Part shown: piece after piece, positions 8,576 to 45,905 of the stretch
Layout of the letters: each line of letters begins with the position of its first letter
Numbering within the stretch: position 1 is the stretch's first letter
Assembly (NCBI RefSeq): GCF_006517815.1
Contig: NZ_CP041198.1
Coordinates: forward strand, 3,348,001-3,412,000
Direction: 5' to 3'
Source: Pseudarthrobacter sp. NIBRBAC000502770
Lineage (GTDB): Bacteria > Actinomycetota > Actinomycetes > Actinomycetales > Micrococcaceae
DNA: 64,000 nucleotides
The notes under the pieces: model-generated
Told to the model about the DNA's origin: nothing
The model's database searches: none
The model's input: only the letters and a program-made list of their open reading frames with translations
Program-made: the position numbers and the translations under genes

Positions 8576-9228
8576 GGAACGGTTATGACCGCCACGGCCC
8601 GCTGGGCGCCGTCGCGCAGTTCGACGCTGGAGATGCTGCCCAGCTGGATGGGTGTGGCACCGGTGACCTTAACCTTCCCGCTGGGGGTGGCGGTCCAGGC
8701 GCAGGCCCGGTCCTCCGCGCCGGCCCGGTCGCGCACCCACAGCGAGAGCGTCCCTTCCTCCGGCAGGCTGCTGCCGCTGACCGCCAGCTCAGTCCCCCAG
8801 GTCTTCCGGGCCATGTCGATGTTCACCTGGAGCCCTCCGCCGGAGGCCACGGAGTAAGTGGCATCCGGCTGCGGCGGCCTGGCGAGCAGCGGCCCCACAG
8901 CCAGGCCCACCGCCAGGCAGGCAGCGGCAACGGCACCTGCCAACGCCACCCACCGCCGTCGTAACGAGCGGCGACGGTGCGCCAGCTCGCTGAACAGGCG
9001 CGCCGGGGCGCCGGGGTCAGCGCCCTCCCCGCCGCCGGGCGCGGCGGTGAGCGCCACGGCGTCGGGGACGGGGAGGGCATCGAGGAGCATTGGGACCTTC
9101 TCCAGCACGGCAAGCTCTTTGCGGCAGGCGGCGCAGCCCTGGAGGTGTGCTTCGAAAAGGCTGAGGTCGGCGGCGTCGAGGCCGCCCAGCACGTAGGCGC
9201 CCAGCAGGTGGTGCGGGTTGTGAGTCAC
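8572..9228 (-). CDS. Zinc-type anti-sigma factor, RskA-like
   Basis: 218 residues. The cytosolic N-terminus carries the zinc anti-sigma signature H28-x3-C32-x2-C35, preceded by HH at 6-7, which in this family clamps the sigma factor. One membrane helix (about 92-115, VALAGAVAAACLAVGLAVG) leads to an outer RskA-type beta domain ending in ELRDGAQRAVAVITVP. Release of the sigma factor in this family follows regulated proteolysis. It starts at GTG with a GTGA overlap on the sigma gene, so the two are translationally coupled, as expected for a sigma/anti-sigma pair. Confidence 0.9.
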   Translation of the reverse strand: MTHNPHHLLGAYVLGGLDAADLSLFEAHLQGCAACRKELAVLEKVPMLLDALPVPDAVALTAAPGGGEGADPGAPARLFSELAHRRRSLRRRWVALAGAVAAACLAVGLAVGPLLARPPQPDATYSVASGGGLQVNIDMARKTWGTELAVSGSSLPEEGTLSLWVRDRAGAEDRACAWTATPSGKVKVTGATPIQLGSISSVELRDGAQRAVAVITVP

Positions 9229-19119: not shown

Positions 19120-19743
19120 TTATTTGGCGGAGACCGCCAGGAACCGGATGGGAAGGTCCAGCAATTCCAGCGGGCCGTGCGGGCCTTCACCGTCCAGGAG
19201 CAGGGAGTCCCCCGGTTCCATGGCGTACTCGTAGGAGCCGTGGCCGTAGACCATCTTCCCGGCGAGCATGTAGATGAACTCGGTGCCCGGGTGCTGGAAC
19301 AGGGGAAACACGTCGCTGGCGTCGGTGAGGGTCACCAGGGTGGGTTCAATGGCATCGGTCCGGCCTTTGAGGGTTCCCAGCACGCGATATTCGTGGCCGT
19401 GCTGGGTGCCGCTCCGGACGGTGAGGCTGCCTTGGCCGCTCTTGGTGAAGGTGGCGTCCCGGTCGGTGTCCGCGCCGCGGAACAGTGCGGTGACCGGAAC
19501 GTTGAGGCCGTCGGCCAGCCGCTGCAAGGTGGTGAGGGAACAGGAAGTGGTGGCGGTTTCCACCCGGGAGATCATGGCCTTGGACAGGCCGGTCCGGGCT
19601 GCGAGCTCGGCCGACGACAAGCCGGCCGACGTGCGGTAGTGCCGGACCTGCGCCGCGATGACCTGCTCCAGCCGGCCGGCAACCTGTCCGGCAGCGTCCT
19701 CTGCGGGTTGGTCCGTTCCGTGGTCCCCGGCCTGTTCGGTCAT
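19120..19743 (-). CDS. XRE-family regulator with C-terminal cupin domain
   Basis: 207 residues. An HTH_3 domain (about 35-90; RTSAGLSSAELAARTGLSKAMISRVE) is followed by a flexible segment and a cupin barrel (about 125-205; VFPLFQHPGTEFIYMLAGKMVYGHG..EPGDSLLLDGEGPHG). This architecture (PuuR/SutR-like) senses small ligands such as polyamines or amino acids through the cupin. An alternative start three codons upstream (19752) is equally plausible. It lies 57 bases downstream of the amidohydrolase gene on the same strand and ends the amine island, so it is the obvious candidate local regulator. Confidence 0.88.
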   Translation of the reverse strand: MTEQAGDHGTDQPAEDAAGQVAGRLEQVIAAQVRHYRTSAGLSSAELAARTGLSKAMISRVETATTSCSLTTLQRLADGLNVPVTALFRGADTDRDATFTKSGQGSLTVRSGTQHGHEYRVLGTLKGRTDAIEPTLVTLTDASDVFPLFQHPGTEFIYMLAGKMVYGHGSYEYAMEPGDSLLLDGEGPHGPLELLDLPIRFLAVSAK

Positions 19744-19800
19744 GCCTGCCATCTTAGGCGGGCCGCGGTAGGCCCGGCGTACGACGACGGTCGTGGCCAA

Positions 19801-21078
19801 TCACACTGCCCCGCCCAGCAGCCCGGCAAGGGAGTCCGCCAGGGCGAGCGCGCCGGCTTCGGCGTCGCTGTCCTCCACGAGTTCGTCCGGCGAATGCGAT
19901 ACGCCGGTGGGGTTCCGGACGAACAGCATTGCGGTGGGCAGGTTCGCGGCCAGCACCCCGGCGTCGTGCCCTGCGCCGGTGTCCAGCACCGGGGCGGCAG
20001 GCAGGAGCTGCTGCAGCCGGTCCCGGAGGCCGCCGTCGAAATGGACTGTGGGGCTCAACGATTCCGTGCCCAGGACGGCTGTGCAGCCTTCCTCCGCGGC
20101 GATGACCTGGGCGTTCAACCCGATGGCCTCCACCAGCGCGGCGGTGACCGAATCCTCCGGGTGCCTGACGTCGATCCAGAGATCCACCCGCGAGGCGATC
20201 ACGTTGGTACCGCCGGGGACGGGCTGTAGCCGGCCCACCGTGGCGCGGGCCTCCTTGTACTTCCGGGCGGTGTCCCGGACGGACACCGTGACTTTGGCCG
20301 CTGCGATCATGGGGTCGCGCCGGTCCCTCATGAGCGTGGTTCCGGCGTGGTTTCCCTCGCCCGTGATGCTCAGTTTCCAGCGGCCGTGGCCAAGGATGGA
20401 GGACCCGATGGCCACCGGCTGGTGCAGGTCCACCAGTCCCCTCCCCTGCTCCACATGCAGTTCCACGAACACCCCCAGCTGCTGCAGGGCCTTGTGGTCG
20501 GCGCCGATGAACCGCGGGTCCTGCCCGTTCGCCGCGGCGGCGTCGGCGTAAGTGTTGCCGTCCGCGTCGCGGAGGTTGCGGGCCTTGTCCGGGTCCAGTC
20601 GGCCGGTGAGGAGCCGCGAGCCAAGGCAGGCCACGCCGAACCGGGAGCCTTCCTCCTCCGGGAACACCGCGAGCACCAGGGGCCGCCGGGGCCGGAAGTT
20701 ACGGGCCTTGAGGAGGTCGACGGCAACCAGCGCCGAGGCAACCCCCAGCGGGCCGTCATACCCGCCGCCGCCGGGGACGGAATCGAGGTGGCTTCCGGTG
20801 GCGACGGCGTCTTTCCGCACTCCGGTTGCTGTGTCCCACCAGGCCCAGATAATCCCGTTGGCATCGGTGTGCACGTCCAGCCCGCGCCGGGCCGCCTGCT
20901 CAATGAACCAACTGCGGAGGTCCGTTTCGGCGGTGGAGAACACCGGGCGGGAGTAGCCGCCGCGGGTGCTGTCGCGGCCGACGTCGGAAATCTCTTTCAG
21001 GAGGCCGGCAACGGTGGGTGCGCCCGCAGTTTCGGCGGGTACCGCGTGCGGCGCTGGTGCTGTGCGGGAAAGGCTCAC
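19801..21078 (-). CDS. Zn-dependent M20 amidohydrolase (allantoate/N-carbamoyl amino acid hydrolase-like)
   Basis: 425 residues. The fold and motifs are those of AllC/HyuC-type enzymes: GSHLDSVPGGGGYDGPLG (metal His and bridging Asp), PEEEGSRF (general base Glu), ELHVEQG (metal His) and the C-terminal GHDAG and SHSPDE blocks. Family members split allantoate, N-carbamoyl or N-formyl amino acids, ureidoglycolate and related amides. The GTG start at 21078 lies 11 bases after the oxidase stop, so it belongs to the glnT-glx operon. In this setting an amide or gamma-glutamyl-type substrate linked to amine use is conceivable, but the actual substrate is unknown. Confidence 0.85.
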   Translation of the reverse strand: MSLSRTAPAPHAVPAETAGAPTVAGLLKEISDVGRDSTRGGYSRPVFSTAETDLRSWFIEQAARRGLDVHTDANGIIWAWWDTATGVRKDAVATGSHLDSVPGGGGYDGPLGVASALVAVDLLKARNFRPRRPLVLAVFPEEEGSRFGVACLGSRLLTGRLDPDKARNLRDADGNTYADAAAANGQDPRFIGADHKALQQLGVFVELHVEQGRGLVDLHQPVAIGSSILGHGRWKLSITGEGNHAGTTLMRDRRDPMIAAAKVTVSVRDTARKYKEARATVGRLQPVPGGTNVIASRVDLWIDVRHPEDSVTAALVEAIGLNAQVIAAEEGCTAVLGTESLSPTVHFDGGLRDRLQQLLPAAPVLDTGAGHDAGVLAANLPTAMLFVRNPTGVSHSPDELVEDSDAEAGALALADSLAGLLGGAV

Positions 21079-21089
21079 GGTTGTCCGTT

Positions 21090-22244
21090 CTACGTGGTGA
21101 GTGCCGGGGAGGAGGCGCTCCGGAACCGGTCCGGAACTGACCCGGCACCGGTGGCCAGGTCCGCCGCCCACTGCCCGGTCAGCGGGGCGAACTTCGCGCC
21201 GTGGCCCGAGCAGGGTGAGACGACGGTGAGGTTCTCCGCCCGGTCAATGAGGAAGTCCTCGGTGGGGGTGTTGGTGAACAGGCAGGTGGTTTCGGCGTAA
21301 GGTTCGGGGTCCAGGCCAGGCAGGTAGCGGCGGACGTAGTCCACCACGCGGGTACGGTTGGCCGGGTCCACCACTCCGGTCTGGTCCGCGGCGGACCGAA
21401 TCCGCGGGCCGCCGTTGTATTCGGCCACTTTCTGCCCGGCAAAATCCGCATCCCGGCCGCCGGGGAGGCCGTAGGTTTGGAGGTCGCCGGCCTTGTGGAT
21501 GAAGGTGGGCCAGTTGGTGCCGGAAAAGCCGGGGTCTTCCCGGTACCTGAAGTGGAAGGCCTGCTCCTGGCGGACGGTAAATTCCGGCAGGCCGGCGAGG
21601 AACCCGGCCGGCAGTGGCAGGGAGTCCAGCAGCCGTGGCAGCCAGCCGCCGGCGCTGATGACGAGGTTGCCGGCGTCGAGTGTTTCCCCCGTGGTGGAGT
21701 GCAGCCGGTAGCCGGCCCCGCCCAGCTGCTCCACCCGGTCCAGGCTCCAGCCGGTCAGGACTTTTGCCCCGTGCCGGACCGCGAGGGCCACCATGGCGTT
21801 GACAGAGGTTTCGGCGTCGATCACGCCCGCACCGGGATGCCAGAGGACCTCGGTGTCGAACGCGATCTGCGGCCAGCGGTTGCGGGCGTCGGCGGCCGAC
21901 AGCAGCTCGTGGTCGATTCCGGCACGGGCCAGTACCTCAGCGAGGAGGGCGGGTTGACGTTTGGGGCCATGGTCCACCGCACCGAACGGCGTGATCAGCT
22001 CAACGCCGGCGTCCGCTGCGAGCCCGTCCCAAAGGTCTTTGGAATCGAGCACGGCCCGGGTGTAGAAGGGGTCCGGGTAGGCGTAGCGGAAGATCCGGGC
22101 GGAGCCGTGCGAGCTGCCGTCGTGGGCGGCGGGAACGTCGCGCTCCAGCAGGGTGACCTGGTGGCCGCGCGCTGCGAGCTGCCACGCGGTGGCGGCGCCG
22201 GCCAGGCCGGCGCCCACCACCACATAATCCGACGGGTCGGCCAT
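21090..22244 (-). CDS. FAD-dependent N-methyl amino acid/sarcosine oxidase-like (MSOX/SolA family)
   Basis: 384 residues, the size of monomeric sarcosine oxidase. An N-terminal FAD site (VVGAGLAGAATAWQLAARG, about 9-27) and the family block GSSHGSARIFRYAY are present. Cys321, in TTCLFTNTPTEDF, occupies the position of the Cys that binds FAD covalently in MSOX (Cys315), and the C-terminal SGHGAKFAP block is conserved. Such enzymes oxidise N-methyl amino acids to the amine plus formaldehyde and H2O2. It overlaps glxD by one base (TGATG), so it is translationally coupled to the amidotransferase-type genes; N-methylglutamate would be the fitting substrate, though this is inference. Confidence 0.87.
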   Translation of the reverse strand: MADPSDYVVVGAGLAGAATAWQLAARGHQVTLLERDVPAAHDGSSHGSARIFRYAYPDPFYTRAVLDSKDLWDGLAADAGVELITPFGAVDHGPKRQPALLAEVLARAGIDHELLSAADARNRWPQIAFDTEVLWHPGAGVIDAETSVNAMVALAVRHGAKVLTGWSLDRVEQLGGAGYRLHSTTGETLDAGNLVISAGGWLPRLLDSLPLPAGFLAGLPEFTVRQEQAFHFRYREDPGFSGTNWPTFIHKAGDLQTYGLPGGRDADFAGQKVAEYNGGPRIRSAADQTGVVDPANRTRVVDYVRRYLPGLDPEPYAETTCLFTNTPTEDFLIDRAENLTVVSPCSGHGAKFAPLTGQWAADLATGAGSVPDRFRSASSPALTT

Positions 22245-23611
22245 CAAAAGCTCCCCTGCGCGCCGGGGATCCAACTGGTGCCGGCCAGCGGCACGCGGGC
22301 CATGGCGGAGGCCTCGATGGTCAGTGCCACCAGGTCTTCCGGCTCCAGGTTGTGCAGGTGCGACTTGCCGCAGGCCCGGGCGATGGTCTGGGCTTCCATG
22401 GTGAGGACACGAAGGTAGTTGGCCAGCCGGCGGCCGGCGGCCACGGGGTCCAGCCGGGAGGAGAGCTCAGGGTCCTGGGTGGTGATGCCGGCGGGGTCGC
22501 GGCCGTCCTGGAAGTCGTCGTAGAACCCGGCGGCCGAACCGAGGGCGGAGTATTCGGCGGCGTAGCGGGGGTCGTTGTCGCCGAGGGCGATCAGCGCGGC
22601 GGTTCCGATGGCCACTGCATCGGCACCCAGGGCCATGGCCTTGGCGACGTCGGCGCCGGTGCGGATGCCGCCGGAGACGATCAGCTGGACCTTCCGGTGC
22701 ATCCCCAGTTCCTGCAACGCCTGGACCGCCTGCGGGATGGCCGCGAGGATGGGGATCCCCACGTGTTCGATGAACACCTGCTGCGTGGCGGCGGTGCCGC
22801 CCTGCATGCCGTCCAGCACCACGACGTCGGCGCCGGACTTCACGGCGAGCGCCGTGTCGTAGTACGGGCGGGAGGCACCGATTTTGACGTAGATGGGGGT
22901 CTTCCAGTCGGTGATTTCGCGCAGCTCGCCGATCTTGATTTCGAGGTCGTCCGGGCCGGTCCAGTCCGGGTGGCGGCTGGCGGAGCGCTGGTCGATGCCC
23001 ACCGGCAGGGTGCGCATCCCGGCGACGCGTTCGGTGATTTTCTGGCCCAGGAGCATGCCCCCGCCGCCGGGCTTGGCGCCTTGGCCGAGCACGATCTCGA
23101 TGGCGTCAGCCTTGCGGAGGTCGTCCGGGTTCATGCCGTACCGGGAGGGCAGGTACTGGTACACCAGGTGTTTGGATTGGCCGCGCTCCTCAGGCGTCAT
23201 GCCGCCGTCGCCCGTGGTGGTGGAGGTGCCCACCTCGGACGCGCCGCGGCCCAGCGCTTCCTTGGCGTTGGCGGACAGGGCGCCGAAGCTCATGCCGGCA
23301 ATGGTCACCGGGGTCTCCAGGTGCAGCGGGCGGCTGGCGTACCGGTCACCGAGGACGACGTCGGTGTCGCACTTTTCGCGGTAGCCCTCCAGTGGGTAGC
23401 GGGACATGGAGGCGCCGAGGAACAGCAGGTCGTCGAAGTGCGGGACCTTGCGCTTGGCGCCCCAGCCGCGGATGTCGTACACGCCGGTGGCGGCCGCGCG
23501 CTGGATGTCCGCGATGGTGGCGCGGTCAAAGGTGGCGGACTCCCGCAGGCCCTGTTCAGCAAGGTCCTGGAGAGGTGCTGCGCCCGCGGCAGGAACGGAG
23601 GTGATGGTCAT
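22244..23611 (-). CDS. glxD: FMN-binding glutamate synthase-family protein, GlxD/MgsC type
   Basis: 455 residues: a stand-alone version of the FMN/synthase domain of GltB. Conserved blocks include GMSFGALSANAKEALG, the GTSTTTGDGGM loop, IVLGQGAKPGGGGML, IYVKIGASRPYYDTA, VVLDGMQGGTAATQ and ALGADAVAIGTAAL. The C-terminal IARACGKS block replaces the Cys-rich 3Fe-4S motif of classical GltB, as in other GlxD proteins. In N-methylglutamate synthase the equivalent subunit joins methylamine-derived nitrogen to 2-oxoglutarate. GGAGG precedes the ATG and only 9 bases separate it from glxC. Confidence 0.88.
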   Translation of the reverse strand: MTITSVPAAGAAPLQDLAEQGLRESATFDRATIADIQRAAATGVYDIRGWGAKRKVPHFDDLLFLGASMSRYPLEGYREKCDTDVVLGDRYASRPLHLETPVTIAGMSFGALSANAKEALGRGASEVGTSTTTGDGGMTPEERGQSKHLVYQYLPSRYGMNPDDLRKADAIEIVLGQGAKPGGGGMLLGQKITERVAGMRTLPVGIDQRSASRHPDWTGPDDLEIKIGELREITDWKTPIYVKIGASRPYYDTALAVKSGADVVVLDGMQGGTAATQQVFIEHVGIPILAAIPQAVQALQELGMHRKVQLIVSGGIRTGADVAKAMALGADAVAIGTAALIALGDNDPRYAAEYSALGSAAGFYDDFQDGRDPAGITTQDPELSSRLDPVAAGRRLANYLRVLTMEAQTIARACGKSHLHNLEPEDLVALTIEASAMARVPLAGTSWIPGAQGSF

Positions 23612-23620
23612 GGGGGCCTC

Positions 23621-24349
23621 CTAGTAGGCAGTCGAGTTGTCGACGTGGAAGTGGTAGAGGTTCCGGGCCGAGCCGTAACGCTTGAAATCGGCAGGGTTGT
23701 CGGTGCGGCCGGCGGCAGCCAGCAGTTCCGCGAGCTCGGCAATGTGCTCTTCGCGCAGCGGCTTTTCGACGCAGTCCGCACCGAGGGAGGCCACCGTCCC
23801 TTTGACGTAGATCCGCGCCTCGTAGATCGAGTCGCCCAGGGCGTCCCCGGCGTCACCGCACACCACCAGGCGGCCGGCCTGCGCCATGAACGCCGACATG
23901 TGGCCGATGTTGCCGCCCACCACGATGTCCACGCCCTTCATGGAGATCCCGCAGCGGGCGCCGGCGTTCCCGTCGATGACCACCAGGCCGCCGTGGCCGG
24001 TGGCGGCGGCGGACTGGGAGGCGTCGCCCTTCACATGGACGCTGCCGGACATGATGTTCTCGGCCAGTCCGACGCCGGCGTTGCCGTTGACGGTCACGGT
24101 TCCCTTCTGGTGCATCCCGGCGGCGTAGTAGCCGGCATGGCCGTCGATGGTCACCGAGACGTCGGCGTTGATGCCGACGGCGAGGCTGTGCTTGCCGCCG
24201 GGGTTGGCAACGGTCCAGGACTGGCCGTCGGCCGCGTTGTGGAGTGCCTGGTTCAGGCTGCGGACCGGGGAGCCGGAAAGGTCCACCACGGTGGGTGCCT
24301 CGGCAGTAACTGCAGTTTCCAGGCTTTCGGGGGCTGTCAGAGTGACCAT
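23621..24349 (-). CDS. glxC: GXGXG-domain subunit, GlxC/MgsB type (GltB C-terminal domain)
   Basis: 242 residues. The right-handed beta-helix of repeated G-x-G units is visible: TIDGHAGYYAAGMHQKG, TVNGNAGVGLAENIMSG, VIDGNAGARCGISMKG, VVGGNIGHMSAFMAQAG. This corresponds to the C-terminal domain of glutamate synthase, here a separate protein that holds the complex together between the amidotransferase and FMN subunits. It overlaps glxB by 13 bases, which indicates coupled translation and equal amounts of the subunits. Confidence 0.88.
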   Translation of the reverse strand: MVTLTAPESLETAVTAEAPTVVDLSGSPVRSLNQALHNAADGQSWTVANPGGKHSLAVGINADVSVTIDGHAGYYAAGMHQKGTVTVNGNAGVGLAENIMSGSVHVKGDASQSAAATGHGGLVVIDGNAGARCGISMKGVDIVVGGNIGHMSAFMAQAGRLVVCGDAGDALGDSIYEARIYVKGTVASLGADCVEKPLREEHIAELAELLAAAGRTDNPADFKRYGSARNLYHFHVDNSTAY

Positions 24350-25245
24350 GTGTAGACCTTTCCGGGTTCCGGTTCAAAAATGCGGGCGTTGTCGATGCCG
24401 GGCAGCCCGGCGAGGGCGCGGTATTCGGAGGCCATGGCCACGTAGTCCTCGGTTTCGGCGATGATGGCCGGCTTGCAGGCGATGGGGTCGCGGACCACTG
24501 CCATGCTGTCCGCGGTGGTGACCACCAGGGTGTAGAAGCCGTCCAGGACGTTGCCCAGGTTCACCAATGCTTCCTCGAGGGTGTCGCCCTGCTGCAGCCG
24601 TGAGGCGACGTAGCGGGCGCCCACCTCGGTGTCATTCTCGGAGTCGAACACCACGCCCTCACGCTTCAGGTTCCGCCGGACCGTGGCGTGGTTGGAGAAG
24701 GAGCCGTTGTGGACCAGGCAGAGGTCGTCGGCCACGGAGAAGGGGTGCGAGCCGCCCGCGGTGACGGCCGACTCGGTGGCCATCCGGGTGTGGGACAGGC
24801 CCTGGCTGCCGGCCATCGCCTCCAGCCCGTGGTGGGCGGCGATCTCCATCGGGTGTCCCACGCTCTTCATCACGGCCACGTGTTCGCCGCGGCCAATGAT
24901 GGTGGCGGCGGGCACGGTTTCGGTGACGGCCTTCACCAGGAGGTCCGTCCCGACGGCGGCGCCCACCAGGGTGGTGTCGCCCACCACTTGCACTGCTGCT
25001 GCCGCGTCAGACGGCAGGAGCGCCGCGACGCCTGCGGTGAGTGCCGCCGTCGTCATTCCCTGGTCCCTGCCGAGCAGGCTCAAGGTGGACCTGCCCGGCG
25101 ACAGCAGGCCCGGGGTGTTGTAGACGGCGAGGCCTGCGGAGTCGGGTCCGCGGTCCACGATCTGGCAGAGCATCGAGGACAGCAGGCTGCCCATCTTGGG
25201 GTGCAGCGAGGGATTGCGCAGCTGCAGCGCGGCGATTCCGCACAT
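24337..25245 (-). CDS. glxB: Class II glutamine amidotransferase-like subunit, GlxB/MgsA type
   Basis: 302 residues. Cys2 directly after the initiator Met (MCGIAAL) is the N-terminal nucleophile of class II amidotransferases; the partner blocks IVDRGPDSAGLAVY, GLSHTRMATESAVTAGGSHPF and LVHNGSFSNHATVR are all present. In N-methylglutamate synthase this subunit acts on gamma-glutamylmethylamide rather than glutamine. AAAGGAATCCC precedes the ATG; the gene follows glnT by 26 bases. Confidence 0.88.
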   Translation of the reverse strand: MCGIAALQLRNPSLHPKMGSLLSSMLCQIVDRGPDSAGLAVYNTPGLLSPGRSTLSLLGRDQGMTTAALTAGVAALLPSDAAAAVQVVGDTTLVGAAVGTDLLVKAVTETVPAATIIGRGEHVAVMKSVGHPMEIAAHHGLEAMAGSQGLSHTRMATESAVTAGGSHPFSVADDLCLVHNGSFSNHATVRRNLKREGVVFDSENDTEVGARYVASRLQQGDTLEEALVNLGNVLDGFYTLVVTTADSMAVVRDPIACKPAIIAETEDYVAMASEYRALAGLPGIDNARIFEPEPGKVYTWSL

Positions 25246-25271
25246 GGTGGGATTCCTTTACGGGGTAGTGG

Positions 25272-26678
25272 TCAGATCGAGGTGAGGTACGTCCGGATTT
25301 CCCAGTCGCTGACCTGGTTGTGCCAGCTGAGGAACTCCTCTTCCTTGGCGTTTGCGTAGTAGGTTCCGATCTCCGGATCGCCGCTGAGGCTGGCCAGGAT
25401 GACCGGGTCCCTGCGGAGCGCTTCCACGGCGTGGAGCAGGGTGGCCGGCAGGAGATGGGCATCCGCTTTGGACTCCCCCGGCCCGGATGGCGTCCCGGGG
25501 TCGAGTGCCTTCTCCACGCCGTCCAGCCCTGCGGCGATGACGGTGGCGACGGCGAGGTAGGGGTTGGCGGAACCGTCGCCGGAGCGGAGTTCGAGCCTCG
25601 CGTTGTCCGGCACGCGGATCATGTGGGTCCGGTCGTTGCCCCCGTAGGAGGCCTTCCGCGGCGACCACGTGGCGCCGGAGGAACTGGTAGTGGCGCCGGT
25701 GCGCTTGTAGGAGTTGACCGTGGGGGCGAGGAAGGCCTGCAGCGCGGGGGCGTGGTCCAGGATTCCGGCGATGAAGGAATACGCGAGGCCGGACAGCCCC
25801 AGGCCGCGTCCGCCGTCGTCCGTGTTTCCGTCCTTCCCCGGGAACAGCGCGTCCGCGCCCGACCACAGCGAGAGGTGGAAGTGCAGGCCGGTGCCGGTGC
25901 GGTCCGTGAACGGCTTGGGCATGAAGGTGGCGGTCATGCCGCGCTGCCCGGCCAGGATATTCAGGATGTAGCGGAGCGAGATGACGCGGTCGGCGGTGGT
26001 GAGGGCATCGGCGTACGTGAAGTTCTGCTCGAACTGGCCGGCGGCGTCCTCGTGGTCGTTGGCGTAGTTGCCCCAGCCGAGTGAGTTCATCGCGTCGCTG
26101 ATGGACGTGAGGTGCTCATACATCCGGGTCACGCCGCGGGCGTCGTAGCAGGGGCGGGGCGAATCGTCCCGGGTGTCGGCGGTGCTCAGCGTCCCGTCGT
26201 CGCTCCTGTTGACCAGGAAGTACTCCACCTCGGCGCCTACCTTGGCCTGCATTCCCTGGTCCGCCAGGCGGGCGAGGGCGTTCTTGAGGATGACGCGCGG
26301 GGCGTAGGGCCAGGGCTTGCCGTCGACGTGCGGGTCGCAGTGGATGATGGCCAGCCCTTCCTTGATGAAGGGGACGGGGGTGAAGGAGGCGAGGTCCGGG
26401 ACGGCGATGAGGTCCCCGTCCTGGGGCTTCTGGCCGATGAGGCCGGCCGCGTAGCCGGCAAAGCCCATGGCGCCCGCTTCGAGTTCGTGGGCGGCTTCCA
26501 CCGGAACGAGCTTGGCGCAGGGCTTTCCGGTCATGTCCACGAAGGTGGCCAGGAGGAAGCGGATGTCATGGGCGCGGGCGATGTCGGCGAGGGTGATCGT
26601 CGGTTCGGAGGCGGGAGCGGCGGACGCAAGGGCCGGCTCCATGGCGGGGGTTACAGCAGGGGTTGCGACACTGGTCAT
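25272..26678 (-). CDS. glnT: Type III glutamine synthetase-like ligase, GlnT (gamma-glutamylmethylamide synthetase type)
   Basis: 468 residues from the ATG at 26678 (AGGA before it). The N-terminal beta-grasp region (FLLATFVDMTGKPCAKLVP) and catalytic blocks KVGAEVEYFL, NDHEDAAGQFEQNF, DRTGTGLHFHLSLW, APTVNSYKRTG and ARLELRSGDGSANPYLA fit the GlnT branch of GS-I-like ligases. GlnT enzymes ligate ammonia or small alkylamines to glutamate using ATP; those grouped with glx/mgs genes make gamma-glutamylmethylamide. It is the first gene of the operon glnT-glxBCD-oxidase-amidohydrolase, transcribed away from the sugar-type genes. Confidence 0.88.
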   Translation of the reverse strand: MTSVATPAVTPAMEPALASAAPASEPTITLADIARAHDIRFLLATFVDMTGKPCAKLVPVEAAHELEAGAMGFAGYAAGLIGQKPQDGDLIAVPDLASFTPVPFIKEGLAIIHCDPHVDGKPWPYAPRVILKNALARLADQGMQAKVGAEVEYFLVNRSDDGTLSTADTRDDSPRPCYDARGVTRMYEHLTSISDAMNSLGWGNYANDHEDAAGQFEQNFTYADALTTADRVISLRYILNILAGQRGMTATFMPKPFTDRTGTGLHFHLSLWSGADALFPGKDGNTDDGGRGLGLSGLAYSFIAGILDHAPALQAFLAPTVNSYKRTGATTSSSGATWSPRKASYGGNDRTHMIRVPDNARLELRSGDGSANPYLAVATVIAAGLDGVEKALDPGTPSGPGESKADAHLLPATLLHAVEALRRDPVILASLSGDPEIGTYYANAKEEEFLSWHNQVSDWEIRTYLTSI

Positions 26679-26826
26679 CGAAACATTCCTGTCCAATTGG
26701 TTAGTTACAGTAAACCTTGTTGCATCAGAGTATCCAAGGCTGTGTTTCACGCGTCGGGCCGGAAGGTTAAATGCATGTTTCGAGGGGATGGGGGTACGCG
26801 TCCAGCAAAGAGAGAGGGTGTACCCG

Positions 26827-27960
26827 TTGAGCAATGAGCAGTCCCCTGACCCGCAGGCACCCGCCGAAGCAAAGACCCCCGTCCCGGACTTACGGGTGGG
26901 GGTGGTGGGCATCGGCTGGGCCGGCCAGCAGCACCTCAAGGCCTACTCGGCGCTGGACGGAGTAAGCATCGTCTCGGTGGCCGGCATGGAACAGGACCTC
27001 CGGGACTCCCTGCAGGCCGAATACGCCATCCCGAACGCCCTCGCCGGCTGGGAGGACATGCTGGAGCACGGCGGCCTGGACGCGGTCAGCGTGGCAGTGC
27101 CCACCTTCCTGCACGCCCCGATCGCCATCGCCGCCCTGGAACGGGGCCTCCACGTGCTCAGCGAGAAGCCGATCGCCCGCAACGCTGCGGAAGGCCAGGC
27201 CATGGTGGACGCCGCCCGCAAAGCCGGCCGCGTCCTTGACGTCGCCTTCAACCACCGCCGCCGCGGGGACATCAGGGCGCTCAAGGACGTGATCGACGGC
27301 GGCGGCCTGGGCCGGCCGTATTACGCGAAGGCCTCGTGGCTGCGGCGCGCCGGCATCCCCACGCTGGGCAGCTGGTTCACCAACCCGGAGCTCGCAGGCG
27401 GCGGCCCCCTGGCGGACATCGGCGTCCATGTGCTCGACTTCGCCCTGTACCTCCTCGGCGAGCCGAAGGTGGTGGCGGTATCCGCAGCCACCCATGCCGA
27501 ACTGGGTCCGCAGGGCCGGGGCGGCGGAAGCCGGTTCTCCGCCCACGCCACCAGCCATGCCTTCGACGTGGAAGACTTCGCCACGGCGTTGCTGCGGCTG
27601 GAGGGCGGCGCGACCCTGCTGGTCGAGGCCAGCTGGGCTGCCTACCGGGAAACCGACGACCAGCTGGACTTCACCGTGTACGGTACTGACGGCGGTGCCG
27701 AGCTCAGGGTGCACGGGGCCCCCTTTCCGCCGGTGGGCCGGCTGCGGGTGTTCGCGGACAAGGACGGGGAGTCCGCGGACTACCTGCCCCCGGTCCTGCC
27801 GGGCCGCGCACACGATGCAGTGGTGGAGGACTTTGTCACCGCCGTGCGCGGCGGCGCGAACGTCTGGGCCAACCATGACGGATCCCTGGCGCTGTACCGG
27901 GCGCAGGTCATCGACGCGTGCTACCAGTCCGCACGCGAGCAGAGGGAGGTTCGGCTCTGA
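26827..27960 (+). CDS. Gfo/Idh/MocA family NAD(P)-dependent oxidoreductase
   Basis: 377 residues. Rossmann NAD(P) site [17 protein letters not shown] (about 20-36), the conserved EKP-type block [19 protein letters not shown], and the C-terminal beta-sheet domain beginning [20 protein letters not shown]. Members oxidise sugars, inositols or related polyols. I place the start at TTG 26827 because GAGAGGG lies 8 bases ahead; an in-frame ATG at 26788 is possible but has its purine run directly against the codon. Its stop overlaps the ThuA gene by one base, so the two are coupled. Confidence 0.88.
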
Positions 27961-28718
27961 TGGACGGCGAACTGCGGATCCTGGTGTGGAACGAAGGCGT
28001 CCACGAAGCCAACAATGAGCCGTCCCACATCGGGGAGATATACCCGGACGGCATCCACGGCGCCATCGCCGCCGGCCTCCGCTCCCACTTTCCGGACGCG
28101 GAGATTACGACGGCGGTCCTGGCCACCGGCGCCGACCACGGCCTCAGCGAAGAGGTGCTCGCGGAGACTGACGTGCTGTTGTGGTGGGGCCACATCGCGC
28201 ACGCCGAGGTGGGGGACGCCGTCGTCGAGCGCGTCCACCGGCACGTGCTGGGCGGGATGGGACTGATCGTGCTGCACTCGGGGCACTTCTCGAAGATCTT
28301 CACCAGACTGCTCGGTACCAGCTGCTCCCTTGCCTGGCGGAATGACGGCCAGCGCGAACTGGTGTGGACCGTCAAGCCGTCCCACCCCATCGCGGACGGG
28401 GTGGACAGCCCCATCGTCATCCCGGAGCAGGAGATGTACGGCGAACTGTTCGACATCCCGGACCCTGACGACCTGATCTTCATCAGCTCGTTTGCCGGCG
28501 GTGAGGTATTCCGGTCCGGCGTCACCTTCACCCGCGGAAAAGGCCGCATCTTCTACTTCAGCCCGGGCGACCAGGAGTACCCGGTGTACCACCATCCGCA
28601 GGTCCAGCGGGTCCTGGCCAACGGCGTGCGGTGGGCTGCGCAGCCGGATGTGGACCGTTCCGCCCCGGCTGTGACCAACCCGGCCCGGGAGTGGTTTGAC
28701 GGGGCAAAACAGCATTGA
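27960..28718 (+). CDS. ThuA-family protein (trehalose-utilisation-like)
   Basis: 252 residues with the ThuA (GATase1-like) fold: [16 protein letters not shown] at the start, a GADHGL turn, [15 protein letters not shown], and [16 protein letters not shown], then the C-terminal [26 protein letters not shown] block. ThuA proteins accompany Gfo/Idh/MocA dehydrogenases in disaccharide (3-keto-sugar) pathways. Coupled to the upstream oxidoreductase by TGATG. Confidence 0.9.
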
Positions 28719-30340: not shown

Positions 30341-30820
30341 CTACCGGCAGGACCGCCGGAGCCGGGCTACCAGCGTGGCGGCGAGCACCGCCGTCGTTAG
30401 TTCCAGGGCAATAACCAGCAACAGGTCCGTGCTGCCGGAGCCGCTTCCAGCGGACGACGGCGGCTGGCCGCCGTGCGCGTGCCCGGCACCGCCGGCGCCG
30501 AGCAGCAGTGCTGCATGCAGGGCAGCCATCGCCACGGCAGCGATGGTGACCTGGTGCAGCGCACCCACCCGGCTGTGCCGCCAGATATGGACCGCGCAGG
30601 GAGCGCAGACCGCGGTGAGTGCCAGCATGAGCACGCCAAGCCACGTGCCGTGGCGCCCGGATACGGCCAGCCATACGTGGGCCGCGCAGGAGACGGCGGT
30701 AACGATGGCAACCAGCCGGGCGTGCTGGCCGGGCCGTTGGGCATGGACCCGCAGGGCACGGTCCCGTCCAGCCGCCGTCGTGCTCCCTGCCGGGGCGGGG
30801 GTCAGGCTAGTGGCAGCCAC
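30341..30820 (-). CDS. Four-helix membrane protein overlapping the amine oxidase gene
   Basis: 159 residues from GTG 30820 (AGGG eight bases before); an ATG at 30838 would add six residues. Four membrane segments: [57 protein letters not shown] and [20 protein letters not shown]. The second carries C-A-P-C followed by H, the third has a lone His, and the loop after it contains HAHGG, possible copper ligands. It starts inside the end of the copper amine oxidase gene and so is co-translated with it. Copper supply to the oxidase is a reasonable guess and nothing more. Confidence 0.6.
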
Positions 30821-32744
30821 CGCTGCTGCCCTCGGCATGGCAGGAGGATTCCTGCTTGTTGGGGTTGGCGGGAACGTCCAGGACCGGGCTGCGGTCGAAG
30901 AAGCCCTCCGGCCGCAGCTTGAAGCCGACGGTGTCCACGGGCATGATGGGCCAGTCCTCCACCCGGGGGAAGTGGGTCAGGCCGAAGGTGTGCCACACCA
31001 CGATGTCCTGGCCGTCGATGTCCCGGTCCTGCGCGACATAGGCGGGCAGGCCCGCGCCGCCGGCGTGCTGGTTCACGAAGTCGCCCGTGGGGTACTTCTC
31101 GTCCTCGGCGTACCGGGTGACCCAGAGGTCCTTGGTGGCAAAGGCGGCGCGGCGGGCGATGGAGGAGTCCGGGTCTGCCAGCAGCGTGGGCTGGTTGTGG
31201 GAGTGCAGTTTGTAGCCCACGGGCTCGCCCAGCCGGTTCCTTGACCCCGGGTTGGAAATGATCCAGGTGCGGCCGGCGCGGGCGTCGGCTTCCCGGACGC
31301 CTTCGGACTCGCGGGCCAGGACGGTACGCCTGCGGGAGAACGCGTTGCCCCGTTCGTTTCCTGGCCCCATGGCCTGGCGGATGACGTCCTCCTCCTCCAC
31401 GCGGTTGGTGAAGCCGTCGATGGCCATGTCCAGCCGGGCGCTGAAGAGGTGCTGGTGGAAGGGGGCGCCCAGGCCTGGCGCCAGTTGGGAGATGTTGTCC
31501 GAGCCGCCCTCGGGGAACGCGGAGGTGAACACGATGCCGGTGGCTTTGGCCTCGAATTCGATGGTTCCATCCAGGTAGAGGTACCAGTAGAAGCCGTAGT
31601 CGTAGTTGCCGATCGTGGTGAAGAAGGAGATGACCAGCCGGCGGTTGCGGCGGGTGTAGGTGACGCCGCTCCAGAGGTCGGAGTGCTTGGAGAGGATACT
31701 CCAGTCCTCCTCGTGCATGCAGATGCCGTTGCGGATTTCCCGCGGGGTGCCGAAGGCGTCGCTGATGACCGGGCTGAGGTAGGTGATCTCACCCAGGCAG
31801 TCGCAGCCCAGTTCCAGGGAGTTGGCGTACTGGCCAATCAGGTATTCGCCGGTGTCGAAGTAGTTCTGCCAGGACCGGACGGGCGACGGGTCACCATACG
31901 GCACCACCATCTCGGCGATGGACGCGCGGTTGATGATCTGCCGCTTCCGGCCGCCGTCCCGAAACGCGAGGTTGTGCAGGACCACGCCTTCGCGGACATC
32001 GAAGCCCACGTCCACGCTCCATTTTTCCCACTCCACGTGGTTGCCGCCCGTGACGGTGAAGCTGGGGCCCTCCGGTTGGGTGATGCTGATGGGTTTCTGG
32101 GTTTCGCGGAGCGGCCCGGTCAGTTCGGGGTCGGTGTAGTTGCCGTGCTCGGCCGGGATGGGCATGGCACCGAGGTCGATGACCTGGGTGACTTCCCTGC
32201 TGACCACGTCCACGTAGGCCACCAGGCCGTCCACCGGGTGTGCCCAGGCGCTGTCCTCGGGGAAATCCTGCACGAACGCCAGGCCGCGGAGGATGCGGCG
32301 GCCCTTCTCTTCGCCGTATTCGAAGACGCCGGCCGAGAGCGGGGCCACGCGGACCTTTTGGACATCGAGGCCCCTGACCGCGAGTGCCGTAAGCCATCGT
32401 TCGTCAGTGGCGAGGAGGGACTCCACCACTTCGAACTCCTCCTCCAAAACCGGCAGTTCGCCGGTCACTGCAGTGTCCAGGACGACGGCGGAGAGCACCT
32501 TTTGCTGGGTAACGGAGACAACGACGTCCCTCGGCGCAGCCCCCGAGGCGTCGTGGATGAAGACCCGGAAACGGCGGTCCGCCTGCGGTTCCGCGCCCCG
32601 CGCCGGATCCAGCAGGCCGAGATAGGCGATGCGGTGCTGGGGGCCCAGGTGGCCTTCCGCCTGCAGAAGGGCGCGGACGTCCAGGATTTCCTCCGCGGTT
32701 GCCAGGCGGAAGGCGGAGGCGGTTTCGGTTGCTGCGAGAGTCAT
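30807..32744 (-). CDS. Copper amine oxidase, phenylethylamine oxidase type
   Basis: 645 residues. It oxidises primary arylalkylamines (phenylethylamine, tyramine) to the aldehyde, releasing ammonia and H2O2. The cofactor precursor is Tyr381 in T-x-x-G-N-Y-D; the catalytic base Asp297 lies in NYFDTGEYL; copper ligands are His430 and His432 (FHQHLF) and the His of [10 protein letters not shown]. These positions are one residue from those of Arthrobacter globiformis AGAO (Asp298, Tyr382, His431/433), and the text is nearly the same throughout. The C-terminus is longer and Cys/His-rich ([13 protein letters not shown]). No signal peptide, as in AGAO. AAAGGCTC precedes the ATG. Expression is probably controlled by the divergent TetR gene. 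Confidence 0.96.
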
Positions 32745-32780
32745 GGGAAGAGCCTTTGTCCGGGCCGTCACCGGCCACTG

Positions 32781-39574: not shown

Positions 39575-40471
39575 CTACCGCAGCACCACGGTGCGGTTTC
39601 CCTGCAGCAGGACCCTGCCCTCGCAGTGCCATTTCACCGCGTTGGAGAGGGCCTTGCACTCCGTGTCGCGGCCGGCGGCCACCAGGTCTTCGGGCCCGTA
39701 AGTGTGGTCCACCTCCACCACCTGCTGGGCGATGATGGGTCCCTCGTCCAGTTCAGCGTTGACATAGTGCGCGGTGGCGCCGACGGTCTTGACGCCCCGC
39801 GCGTACGCCTGGTGGTACGGCTTGGCACCCTTGAAGCTGGGCAGGAACGAATGGTGGATGTTGATGGCCCGGCCGTCCAGTTTGCGGGTCAGGTCGTCGC
39901 TGAGCACCTGCATGTAGCGGGCCAGCACCACGAGTTCGACGTCGAGCCCGTCCACCAGTTCCATGAGCGCAGCCTCGGCCGCGGGCTTGGTCTCCGCCGT
40001 GACCGGGATGTGGTGGAACGGGATGCCGTGCCACTCCACCAGTGCCTGGTGGTCCCGGTGGTTGGACACCACGGCCACCACCTCAACGGGAAGTTCGCCG
40101 ACCCGGGCGCGGAACAGCAGGTCGTTGAGGCAATGCCCAAACTTGGACACCATGATCAGCACCTTGCGCTTGGACCCGTGGCGTTCCAGCTGCCAGCGCA
40201 TGCCGAACTTCTCCGCCACCGGGGCGAACGAGGTCCGCAGCTTCTCCAGCGTGGACTCATCGCCTTCGGAGACAAAGTGCACGCGCATGAAGAAGTGGCC
40301 TTCGGAGCGCTCACCGAACTGCTTGTTGTCGATGATGTCGCAGCCGTGCTCCAGCAGGAACCCGGACACGGCGTGCACAATGCCGGGCCCTTCCGGGCAG
40401 TCCAGGGTCAGGACGTGTTCCACGGTGGTGGGCGCCTTCGATGCGGGGATATGGGTTTCAGTAACAGTCAT
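39575..40471 (-). CDS. purU: Formyltetrahydrofolate deformylase
   Basis: 298 residues. It hydrolyses 10-formyl-THF to THF and formate. An N-terminal ACT-like domain (about 18-95; LTLDCPEGPGIVHAVSGFLLEHGCDI) is followed by the formyltransferase-type domain with VVSNHRDH, INIHHSFLPSFKGAKPYHQAY and GATAHYVNAELDEGPII (catalytic His and Asp region). It is the last gene of the sarcosine operon, three bases after sdaA, where it would free THF loaded by the C1 unit of sarcosine. Confidence 0.95.
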   Translation of the reverse strand: MTVTETHIPASKAPTTVEHVLTLDCPEGPGIVHAVSGFLLEHGCDIIDNKQFGERSEGHFFMRVHFVSEGDESTLEKLRTSFAPVAEKFGMRWQLERHGSKRKVLIMVSKFGHCLNDLLFRARVGELPVEVVAVVSNHRDHQALVEWHGIPFHHIPVTAETKPAAEAALMELVDGLDVELVVLARYMQVLSDDLTRKLDGRAINIHHSFLPSFKGAKPYHQAYARGVKTVGATAHYVNAELDEGPIIAQQVVEVDHTYGPEDLVAAGRDTECKALSNAVKWHCEGRVLLQGNRTVVLR

Positions 40472-40474
40472 GGC

Positions 40475-41890
40475 TCAGCACTCGATCACATTCACGGCGA
40501 GGCCTCCTCGGGAGGTTTCCTTGTACTTGGTTTTCATGTCGGCTCCGGTATCGCGCATGGTCTTGATCGCCTTGTCCAGCGAGACCTTGTGGCTGCCGTC
40601 CCCGTGCAGGGCCAGCCGGGCCGCGTTGATCGCCTTCACGCTGGCGATCGCATTCCGCTCAATGCACGGGATCTGCACCAGGCCGCCCACGGGGTCGCAG
40701 GTCAGGCCCAGGTTGTGCTCGATGCCCACCTCGGCGGCGTTTTCCACCTGTGCCGGCGTTCCGCCGAGCACCTCGCAGAGCCCGGCCGCGGCCATCGAGC
40801 AGGCGGAGCCCACCTCCCCCTGGCAGCCCACTTCGGCGCCGGAGATGGAAGCGTTCAGTTTGAACAGGATTCCGACGGCGGCCGCCGCCAGCAGGAAGCG
40901 GACCACACCATCGTCGTCGGCCCCTGGAACAAACTTCACGTAGTAGTGCAGGACTGCCGGCACAATGCCCGCGGCCCCGTTGGTGGGGGCGGTGACGATC
41001 CGGCCGCCGGCCGCGTTCTCCTCGTTCACGGCCAGCGCGAAGAGGTTCACCCATTCCATCGCCAGCAGCGGATCCGCGGGTGCCTGGACGGGCGACGGCG
41101 ACGCTGCCGCGGCTTCGGCGGAGGCGGCCGAGGCCGTCAGGGTGCGGAACAGGGCGGGGGCCCGCCGGGTGACGTTCAGGCCTCCGGGCAGGATGCCTTC
41201 GGCGTTGCAGCCGTTCTCCACGCATTCACGCATGACAGCCCACAGCCACAGCAGCTGTTCGCGGAGCTCCGCTTCGCTGCGCCAGGTCAGTTCGTTGGCC
41301 AGCATGACCTCGGAGATGGACATGCCTTCACGGCTGCAGATCTGCAGCAGTTCATCCGCCGTGGAGAACGGGTACGGCAGCACGGTGTCATCCGGCACCA
41401 CCTTGTCCGCACCCTCGGCGTCGCCGTCCACCACGAATCCGCCGCCGATCGAGTAGAAGCTCCGCTCGCTCAGCACGGCGCCCGTGTGGTCCAGGGCCCG
41501 GAAGGTCATGCCGTTGGGGTGCGCGGGAAGGGACTTTCGCCGGTGGAGCACCACGTCCTCTTCCCAGTTGAAGTCCACCCGGTGCACCCCGGCGATGTGC
41601 AGTTCGGCGTCCAGCGCGGCGGCTGCCACCTGGTCGTCGGCGGTGAAGGTGTCCACGGTTTCCGGGTCCAGGCCTTTCAGCCCCAGGACCACTGCCTTGT
41701 CCGAGCCGTGGCCGCGGCCGGTGGCGCCGAGCGACCCGAACAGTTCGGTCTGGACGCGGGCGGTGGCAGCCAGCTGGCCGTCACCCTTCAGTCCATCCGC
41801 GAACAGCTTGGCCGCCCGCATCGGGCCCACCGTGTGTGACGACGAGGGCCCGATGCCAACGGAAAAGAGGTCAAGGACGCTGAGCGCCAT
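40475..41890 (-). CDS. sdaA: L-serine ammonia-lyase, single chain
   Basis: 471 residues. It converts serine to pyruvate and ammonia with a 4Fe-4S cluster. The N-terminal [18 protein letters not shown] block, the GGGFVVDG turn, and the C-terminal catalytic part ([65 protein letters not shown]) contain the conserved cluster cysteines. Start and soxG stop overlap as TGATG. In this operon it disposes of the serine that GlyA makes from sarcosine-derived glycine. Confidence 0.95.
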
Positions 41891-42540
41891 CAGGGGACCT
41901 CTGGCGAGGCGTACTCCCGCATGGCGTCCAGCAGCCACCGGCCCAGGAACTCGGCGAACGAAGCGCGGGGGAAGATCCGGAAGGACTCGTCACCGGTCTT
42001 CCACAGGATGGCGGGGATGTTCGCGATTTCCGTGGAGAAGGCGGTCCCGGCCTTGAAGACCCGCGGGTGGAGGTCCAGCGAGCAGCCCTTTTCCAGGACG
42101 GCACGGGCCCGGGGGCCCGTCAGTTCGAACGTGGTCCGGTTGGCGGACAGGTCCACCACCTGGCCCGCGTCGCCGCCCAGCGCGTCCCGGAGCGCGGGGA
42201 TGAGGTCCCCGCCCAGGGATTCGTGCGCCTCGGTGGGTGCAACCACCAGGAACTCGGCGGGGCCGAGCCACAGGACGGACACGTCGCCGCTGCCGGTTAC
42301 GGCACCGGAGCCGGCGGGGAGGCCGCCGGTCACACCGGCCAGGCGCTCCGCCGCGGCGGATCCTGCGAGTGCCCGGAGGCCCACCATGGTCAGGAAGGGC
42401 ACCTCGGAGATTTCAACGGTTCCTGTCAGGGAGCCAGCCGCGAATTCTTCCGCCAGCTGACGCGCCGGGCTGACGCGGGCGGCGAGGTTCTTCTCGGCGT
42501 TGGTCTTGGCGGAGGTCGGGGATGCTGCTGTTTCAGCCAT
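41890..42540 (-). CDS. soxG: Sarcosine oxidase gamma subunit
   Basis: 216 residues, near the family's usual ~200. The fold is a small GcvT-like domain ([51 protein letters not shown]), typical of SoxG. It is part of the heterotetramer SoxABDG that demethylates sarcosine. The start overlaps soxA by 8 bases. An ATG 15 codons upstream exists but would lie deep within soxA and lacks a ribosome site. Confidence 0.93.
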
Positions 42541-45475: not shown

Positions 45476-45876
45476 TTGGTCGCTCCTTCCGGGGCGGTGG
45501 TGCTGAGGATGCTCGTGGCGGAGGTGCTGGGTGCCGCACTTCCCGTGGTGGTGCTGTCAGGGCCGGTGCTGGCGGCCCCGGTTTCGGGTGCGCCGTCCGG
45601 GGAGCGGTCGGGCCGCTTCGCCCCCATCGGGTAGACAGCCTTGATGTCATAGCTCACGGTGTCGCGGAGCATGTTGAACCACTGGCGGCAGCCGGTGCTG
45701 TGGACCCAGCGCTCGGCGAAGATGCCTTTGGGGTTCTCCCGGTAGAAGAGGTAGCGGGACCACTCCGTGTCGCTCAGCTCGTTGGGGTTCTCGGGGTACG
45801 GAACGTGAGCCTGTCCCCCGTAGTGGAATTCGGTTTCGTCCCGCGGGCCGCAGTTGGGGCATGGGATCAGCAGCAT
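45472..45876 (-). CDS. soxD: Sarcosine oxidase delta subunit (with extended C-terminus)
   Basis: 134 residues. The zinc site is intact: C6-P-N-C9 at the start, a His around 18, and a Cys in STGCRQWFN near residue 70. SoxD is usually about 95-100 residues; here about 35 extra residues rich in Thr, Ser, Ala and Pro are added (from [10 protein letters not shown] to the end). AAGGACTAACGCAC precedes the ATG. The extension looks disordered and may be recent slippage or a linker. Confidence 0.93.
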
Positions 45877-45905
45877 GTGCGTTAGTCCTTTTCTGGTGGC
45901 GGCGG

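Follow-up and report, generated by a model that had tools for sequence, protein, structure and literature searches.

A glnT-glxBCD operon with a single-gene flavin oxidase: a probable actinobacterial variant of the N-methylglutamate route for methylamine nitrogen

In a 64,000-nucleotide (nt) stretch of the Pseudarthrobacter sp. NIBRBAC000502770 genome (positions 3348001-3412000 of contig 2 of two, NZ_CP041198.1; hereafter, the window), six genes on the minus strand encode a GlnT-type ligase, the three split subunits of a glutamate synthase-like enzyme (GlxBCD), a single-gene flavin oxidase (OX1), and an amidohydrolase of the M20 family. Judging from protein families, active-site residues, and gene neighborhoods, this operon probably represents, in an actinobacterial form, the N-methylglutamate (NMG) route for the use of methylamine nitrogen, with OX1 taking the step of the four-subunit enzyme MgdABCD. 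In this scheme, GlnT would join methylamine and glutamate into gamma-glutamylmethylamide, and GlxBCD (equivalent to MgsABC) would transfer the methylamine to 2-oxoglutarate, giving NMG. OX1, using FAD, would then oxidize the N-methyl group with O2, presumably forming peroxide, and regenerate glutamate. The likeliest role of the M20 protein would be to hydrolyze an N-acyl-glutamate made in or beside the OX1 step.

In the direction of transcription, the genes are glnT (25272..26678; gamma-glutamylmethylamide synthetase type, GmaS/GlnT), glxB (24337..25245; mgsA-like, the amidotransferase subunit of NMG synthase), glxC (23621..24349; mgsB-like), glxD (22244..23611; mgsC-like, the FMN-binding glutamate synthase subunit), OX1 (21090..22244), and the M20 gene (19801..~21078; GTG start inferred). 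From the coordinates of the open reading frames (ORFs), 26 nt separate glnT and glxB, glxB and glxC overlap by 13 nt, 9 nt separate glxC and glxD, and the glxD stop codon and the OX1 ATG have one base in common; with the M20 start inferred, the gap between OX1 and the M20 gene is 11 nt. The initial annotation of this DNA had described six same-strand genes of these families with short gaps or overlaps, and both the ORFs and the family matches bear it out. The operon extends beyond the end it had been given: an XRE-cupin regulator gene (19120..19752, minus strand, start inferred; Pfam HTH_31, HTH_3, and Cupin_2) closes it, followed by the ammonium transporter gene amtB (17580..~18872, minus strand, start inferred; TIGR00836, 419 bits). 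AmtB perhaps carries methylammonium too, and its gene is probably in the same regulon as the glnT operon.

GlnT exceeded the cut-off of its family (TIGR03105, 583 bits versus 469.6), and its closest relatives in the PDB were GmaS (7cql, E = 6e-111) and a protein named "glutamate--methylamine ligase" (9qur, E = 1e-99). Compared with the methylamine-site and catalytic residues of RhGmaS, as given in the available text of PMC7948447, it keeps K30', A48', Y147, D177, E179, E186, N188, W300, and R312. The Asp and the Glu flap of the ammonia site of glutamine synthetase (GS) are missing, A48' standing for Asp50' and W300 for Glu304, and D177, E186, and R312 are kept. The active site thus appears to be of the GmaS type rather than the GS type, and the earlier identification of a GlnT-type ligase is upheld by both the family score and the retained residues. 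A 14-residue signature of the window's GlnT was shared by 38 of 40 OX1-linked GlnTs (one exception is changed at E186, the other is unaligned over the site) and by 25 of 25 labeled as linked to a second, SoxB-like single-gene oxidase (OX2; one of these loci, L132, was labeled by a weak 25% match). It was also present in 10 of 11 other GlnTs with glxD and in 6 of 9 without glxD in view. Adjoining glnT, the three NMG synthase subunits carry GATase (GATase_6 and GATase_7), GXGXG, and Glu_synthase (E = 1e-91) domains, in that order; the best PDB matches of GlxD are glutamate synthases. These families and the M-C-G-I N terminus of GlxB agree with the three split subunits, GlxB with Cys2 among them, that had been read from the sequence.

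The operon lacks mgdABCD and has a single-gene oxidase in its place. To survey this slot, we used 394 genomes sampled evenly across the class, scoring at most four candidates per genome in the GlnT and M20 searches. GlnT was found at E 1e-120 in 44 (this genome and 43 others), and all 43 neighborhoods were examined. OX2 followed glxD in 23. An OX1-type oxidase was present in 7, after glxD in 6 and ahead of glnT in 1 (L163). Four had soxB, with soxA in view in 3 of them (L195 to L197), and three were left unjudged (L190, and L193 and L198, in whose stretches glxD was not found). A wider sample of the phylum gave three further loci with soxA or soxB near glnT-glxBCD (L124, L125, and L130). The best family for one OX2 (that of L118) was soxB, at 142 bits against a cut-off of 529; OX1 and OX2 are 23 to 27% identical and are therefore distant members of one superfamily. 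The oxidase slot beside glnT-glxBCD is interchangeable: it holds soxB/soxA or either of two distant single-gene flavin oxidases.

When named genomes were scanned with OX1 as the query, 79 loci were obtained (ORF starts outside the window are uncurated). All six genes were recognized in 27 of these, and because the order was identical in all 27, the arrangement is not due to chance; a search for the same order in other genomes, part of a check suggested in the initial annotation, was positive. The regulator was present in 25 and Amt in 22 of these complete loci, which span the Micrococcaceae, Microbacteriaceae, and Nocardioidaceae (genera include Pseudarthrobacter, Arthrobacter, Cryobacterium, Microbacterium, and Nocardioides). 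The genome of the window is Arthrobacter/Pseudarthrobacter-like, and the nearest named relatives of its OX1 are 86 to 88% identical. Within the genus, the operon is patchy: of 36 other genomes searched, 6 had a GlnT of at least 87% identity. glxD and OX1 occurred together in 32 of the 79 loci, and M20 was not seen in three of the 32: in L022 and L077 the regulator directly follows OX1, and in L028 the stretch stops after OX1. Among the glnT loci scanned, one (L121) has two distinct glnT-glxBCD clusters, with GlnTs 53% and 31% identical to that of the window.

OX1 belongs to the DAO family (MSOX/SolA/NikD), and its best sequence matches in the PDB are sarcosine oxidases; it is about 26% identical to monomeric sarcosine oxidase (MSOX). 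C315, R49, R52, K265, and K348 of MSOX are identical in OX1 and in all 79 named OX1 proteins. C321, earlier named as the Cys that binds FAD covalently, is indeed residue 321 from the OX1 ATG and aligns with MSOX C315. OX1 scored under the cut-offs of both the MSOX family (TIGR01377, 198.8 bits versus 479.65) and the N-methyl-L-tryptophan oxidase family (NF008425, 228.9 bits versus 257). Given these scores and the changes at MSOX H269 and Y317 described next, we rejected a plain sarcosine oxidase.

Several observations weigh against assigning OX1 to the NMG step. MSOX H269 is replaced by Tyr and Y317 by Phe in OX1, changes that the initial annotation does not mention, and among the 79 named OX1 proteins, position 269 is Tyr or Phe in 78 and position 317 is Phe in all. 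No oxidase was recognized in 6 of the 43 glnT stretches (L165, L167, L172, L175, L177, and L182), where a regulator stands directly after glxD. In 47 of the 79 named loci, some on contigs that end nearby, glxD was not recognized beside OX1, and the OX1 family is therefore not bound to NMG. GlnT has Ala at the position of RhGmaS Q175, and so its amine may differ. Finally, full SoxA was found in this genome and in all six of the same-genus genomes tested. In two Sinomonas loci (L039 and L041), OX1 lies beside what appear by eye to be an amino acid permease, an aldehyde dehydrogenase, and two short-chain dehydrogenases/reductases; OX1 of these loci likely acts on a different substrate.

The M20 protein scored 609 bits against NF006770 (named allantoate amidohydrolase; cut-off, 372) and 198.6 bits against the AllC allantoate deiminase family (TIGR03176; cut-off, 597.75), far too low for us to favor an allantoate amidohydrolase. 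Elsewhere in the genome an allantoinase is over its cut-off, and at E 1e-20 M20 is the only protein of its kind there, so to that extent it may have a role in allantoate use. Relatives at E 1e-110 were found in 70 of the 394 class genomes, this one included. Outside this genome, the context was examined at 14 of the 70 places, mostly better-scoring ones, and 6 more lay in GlnT loci (five oxidase-linked and one, L180, in a hut operon). Eleven of the 14 were in hut operons (L237, L239, and L241 to L249), in the order hutU-M20-hutF in 10 and hutH-M20-hutF in 1; two were in operons with OX1, Amt, and an ornithine cyclodeaminase (OCD)-family gene (L238 and L240; see below). In the last, L236, a short OX1-like stretch (8888-9130, 72% identical) directly precedes M20 and may be what is left of an oxidase that was lost. 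Two hut copies scored 527 and 646 bits against NF006770, and the hut copies are 50 to 67% identical to the window's M20. Thus, M20 is not the wholly new component that it had been taken for, its subfamily being found in actinobacterial hut operons.

HutF produces N-formyl-L-glutamate, and the hut M20 copies therefore sit where an N-formylglutamate hydrolase is needed; by this context, the name allantoate amidohydrolase is probably wrong for the hut-operon members of NF006770. In phylogenetic trees, hut-linked and oxidase-linked M20s interleave. For example, the M20 of L189 (glnT-glxBCD-OX2-M20) is 56.7% identical to the hut M20 of L244 and 49 to 51% identical to other OX2-linked M20s. A single clade of oxidase-linked M20s was rejected by the approximately unbiased (AU) test (p-AU = 1.1e-7), for a group chosen after the first tree. 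It seems that M20 was either exchanged between hut and NMG operons or recruited by each separately, which suggests one reaction on an N-acyl-glutamate. Because the operon intermediate would be NMG, N-formylglutamate is a natural candidate for its substrate. It could arise by a second oxidation of NMG (Glu-N-CH3 to the carbinolamine to Glu-N-CHO), and its cleavage by M20 would yield formate, not formaldehyde; we put this forward tentatively, with far less confidence than the route and the OX1 step.

What counts against N-formylglutamate begins with the post hoc choice of the AU grouping and with long-branch warnings for L189 with L244 and for L243. Table 3 of PMC3223725 lists as invalidated a prediction that an M20 protein (COG0624) is an alternative N-formylglutamate deformylase; as far as the available part of that paper goes, the prediction concerned histidine degradation, and a Streptomyces avermitilis protein of this group, perhaps not an NF006770 hut copy, had no deformylase activity. 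No M20, hutF, or hutI was recognized in 19.5 kb around hutU and hutH of this genome, nor was a second M20 of the NF006770 kind found in the genome; the operon M20 could therefore serve histidine breakdown. The negative deformylase result and the hutUH stretch without M20 also fit a proposal compatible with the NMG route, in which OX1 yields formaldehyde and M20 acts outside the methylamine path, hydrolyzing N-carbamoyl-L-glutamate or another N-acyl-glutamate in scavenging, repair, or histidine breakdown. Enzymes of the AAH family, to which M20 belongs, classically cleave N-carbamoyl amino acids, and the family of the N-carbamyl-L-glutamate amidohydrolase ErtE (NF058540) is related, M20 scoring 263 bits, which is under its cut-off of 520. 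This proposal has a serious chance of being right, but M20 tracks certain oxidases as if coupled to their reaction. M20-linked OX2 proteins form a distinct clade (4 of 4, support 100/100), and M20-linked OX1 proteins are of the type with Tyr or Phe at 269 and Phe at 317. In the pocket comparison, the M20-linked OX1 proteins shown, which are related sequences, had Tyr269 and Phe317 in 9 of 9. Of seven OX1 proteins without M20 in view in the same comparison, five had His and Tyr (L134, L161, L162, L164, and L178), one had Phe and Phe (L169), and one had Tyr and Phe (L077); the OX1 of L022, also without M20, had Phe and Phe. Because the OX1 sequences are related, this correlation is no independent statistic, and the OX1 tree is a quick one with long outgroup branches.

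A second argument against a role of M20 outside the path comes from mscR. A plasmid of Streptomyces sp. NBC_01320 carries glnT-glxB-glxC-glxD-oxidase-mscR. Its oxidase is a member of the OX1 family with 41% identity, and its MscR, at 665 bits against TIGR03451, is an S-(hydroxymethyl)mycothiol dehydrogenase. In L185, OX2 is followed by an MscR of 73% identity. M20 and MscR were never together in the 59 glnT loci scanned, and at E 1e-60 MscR was not found in the named OX1 loci; this genome encodes a 74% identical MscR outside the window. Taken as a whole, a formaldehyde-free route from methylamine strikes us as somewhat doubtful. In it, OX1 would perform two successive two-electron oxidations to N-formylglutamate, and a hydrolase common to histidine catabolism would release formate and glutamate. 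Oxidases without M20, mostly with His and Tyr, would release formaldehyde, with MscR as a possible substitute, and an OCD variant would use an imine reductase.

The OCD variant comprises eight loci (L029, L031, L042, L047, L056, L059, L238, and L240) in which OX1 and M20 occur with an OCD-family gene and Amt and not with glnT-glxBCD. The two OCD copies scanned belong to NF004848, a family named tyramine oxidase subunit B. No GlnT was found at E 1e-80 in the genomes that hold L029, L031, L042, and L047 or at E 1e-120 in those of L238 and L240 (G582 and G322); in the genomes with L056 and L059, the only GlnT is 42% identical. It is speculation that the OCD protein is an imine reductase that makes the N-methyl amino acid directly, replacing glnT-glxBCD. 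One locus, L017, has both the OCD gene and glnT-glxBCD.

The same chemistry could serve a larger primary amine, such as ethylamine or ethanolamine, with OX1 cleaving an N-alkylglutamate to glutamate and an aldehyde. The Ala at the RhGmaS Gln175 site may widen the GlnT pocket, OX1 has a pocket changed at positions 269 and 317, and ethylamine is a good substrate of RhGmaS itself (PMC7948447, Table 1, in the text available). We consider a larger amine unlikely: four of six soxA-linked GlnTs share the window's full signature, Ala included; in the two loci with an aldehyde enzyme after the oxidase, that enzyme is MscR, which is of the formaldehyde type; and relatives of M20 occur in hut operons, where a glutamate derivative bearing a C1 group arises.

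The window also contains a glyA-soxB-soxA-sdaA-purU operon (39575-48463, minus strand; of the Sox subunits, SoxB and SoxA were examined), which the initial annotation had overlooked. SoxA (1,254 bits) and SoxB (625 bits), at 42.5-47.1 kb, are over their cut-offs, and they are the only such proteins in the genome, encoded about 13 to 22 kb from the glnT operon. A four-subunit enzyme therefore cannot be said to be missing from this organism. We searched for the SoxA family in 43 genomes, scoring 14 candidates per genome. No full-length SoxA/MgdC was found in 22 of 26 out-of-genus genomes with OX1 (7 genomes) or OX2 (19 of the 23 that carry it), where the best matches were at most 200 bits and mostly to the GcvT domain; the other four (G619, G572, G352, and G789) have a full or nearly full SoxA. 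The best SoxA matches in the four soxB-linked genomes were 507 to 799 bits, and the search therefore detects such genes. The neighbors glyA, sdaA, and purU point to sarcosine as the substrate of the soxBA operon. That this soxBA-type enzyme oxidizes NMG, with OX1 and M20 acting on another N-methyl or N-acyl amino acid (e.g., N-carbamoylsarcosine to sarcosine to glycine), is very unlikely: its presence, the MSOX-like fold of OX1, and the remote MgdA-D cluster that McTaggart et al. (2015; PMC5023230, Table 2, as far as available) assigned to the Gma-MgsABC genes of two Mycobacterium strains speak for it, but the sarcosine-to-serine gene set, the 22 genomes without full SoxA, and the one-base overlap of OX1 with glxD speak against it. 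The initial annotation's proposal that a monomeric oxidase performs the MgdABCD step stands in part: slot exchange, the SoxA survey, the GmaS-type site, and the formaldehyde dehydrogenase after the oxidase in two loci favor it, and soxB and soxA in the same window make it incomplete. In a separate region of this genome, 35-41 kb before the window (L252), a pair of long ORFs whose parts resemble SoxB and GcvT are of the dimethylglycine oxidase type by their match pattern.

Upstream of glnT, CAACAAGGTTT (26712..26722, minus strand) is a weak candidate for an operator or promoter element; most of it is conserved when 30 upstream regions are aligned. When 23 sources were scanned with a regular expression, the element was present ahead of glnT in the window and in L004, and in a looser form in L134, but not in seven other glnT loci or in the eight OCD loci. 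An operator common to glnT operons and OCD-OX1-M20-Amt loci was rejected, CAACANNGTTT-like sites being absent from 8 of 8 OCD and 7 of 10 glnT loci scanned. Divergent from glnT are genes for a Gfo/Idh-type dehydrogenase and a ThuA protein (26833-28718, plus strand), recognized in few relatives only. A copper amine oxidase gene (30807-32771, minus strand) is close to that of the Arthrobacter phenylethylamine oxidase, and given this match we do not favor it as a methylamine oxidase.

In the proteobacterial NMG pathway (gmaS, mgsABC, and mgdABCD; e.g., Aminobacter NyZ550, PMC11446756, in the part available), a GmaS-type ligase gene and three split NMG synthase genes are likewise adjacent, but here one MSOX/SolA-like gene stands for mgdABCD, and an M20 amidohydrolase and an XRE-cupin regulator are added. 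The Gma-MgsABC clusters of Mycobacterium sp. 141 and 155 have the same first four genes as here. According to the accessible text of McTaggart et al. 2015 (PMC5023230), MgdA-D of strain 141 lie in a remote cluster (genes 1509-1512 versus 2874-2877), no oxidase is named next to mgsC, whereas here it adjoins glxD, and no Gma-MgsABC was reported in their Arthrobacter strains. From MSOX, N-methyltryptophan oxidase, and NikD, OX1 differs in its low identity to MSOX, its residues at 269 and 317, and its scores under both NCBIfam cut-offs. The hut-operon M20, whose function is putative, is of the same family as the operon's, but it precedes hutF there and follows the NMG oxidase here. The Puu putrescine pathway also has a GS-like gamma-glutamyl ligase, a DAO-family oxidase, and an XRE-cupin regulator, to which the regulator here is weakly similar (PuuR, 31.6 bits; cut-off, 211). 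Unlike the Puu pathway, this operon has glxBCD in between and has neither an aldehyde dehydrogenase nor PuuD; because glxBCD intervene, an N-alkyl amino acid rather than a gamma-glutamyl amine is expected as the substrate of OX1. We found no description of a single-gene oxidase in the NMG dehydrogenase slot in the open-licence literature, and as far as that literature goes, the operon appears to be a new variant of the NMG route, predicted to work like it with the mgdABCD feature missing from the operon.

In soil and sea alike, methylamine commonly serves as a source of nitrogen, and searches for the NMG route usually rely on the known genes, with mgdABCD among them. If the MgdABCD step is performed by single-gene oxidases, then Actinobacteria in which the pathway seems to be missing, or which have been assigned a remote Mgd or sarcosine oxidase, have a complete operon. 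With two distant oxidases in one slot, repeated recruitment can be tested cleanly. Should M20 cleave N-formylglutamate, this would settle both a methylamine route that avoids free formaldehyde and the final step of the HutF route of histidine breakdown in actinobacteria, and the allantoate amidohydrolase name of NF006770 would be corrected.

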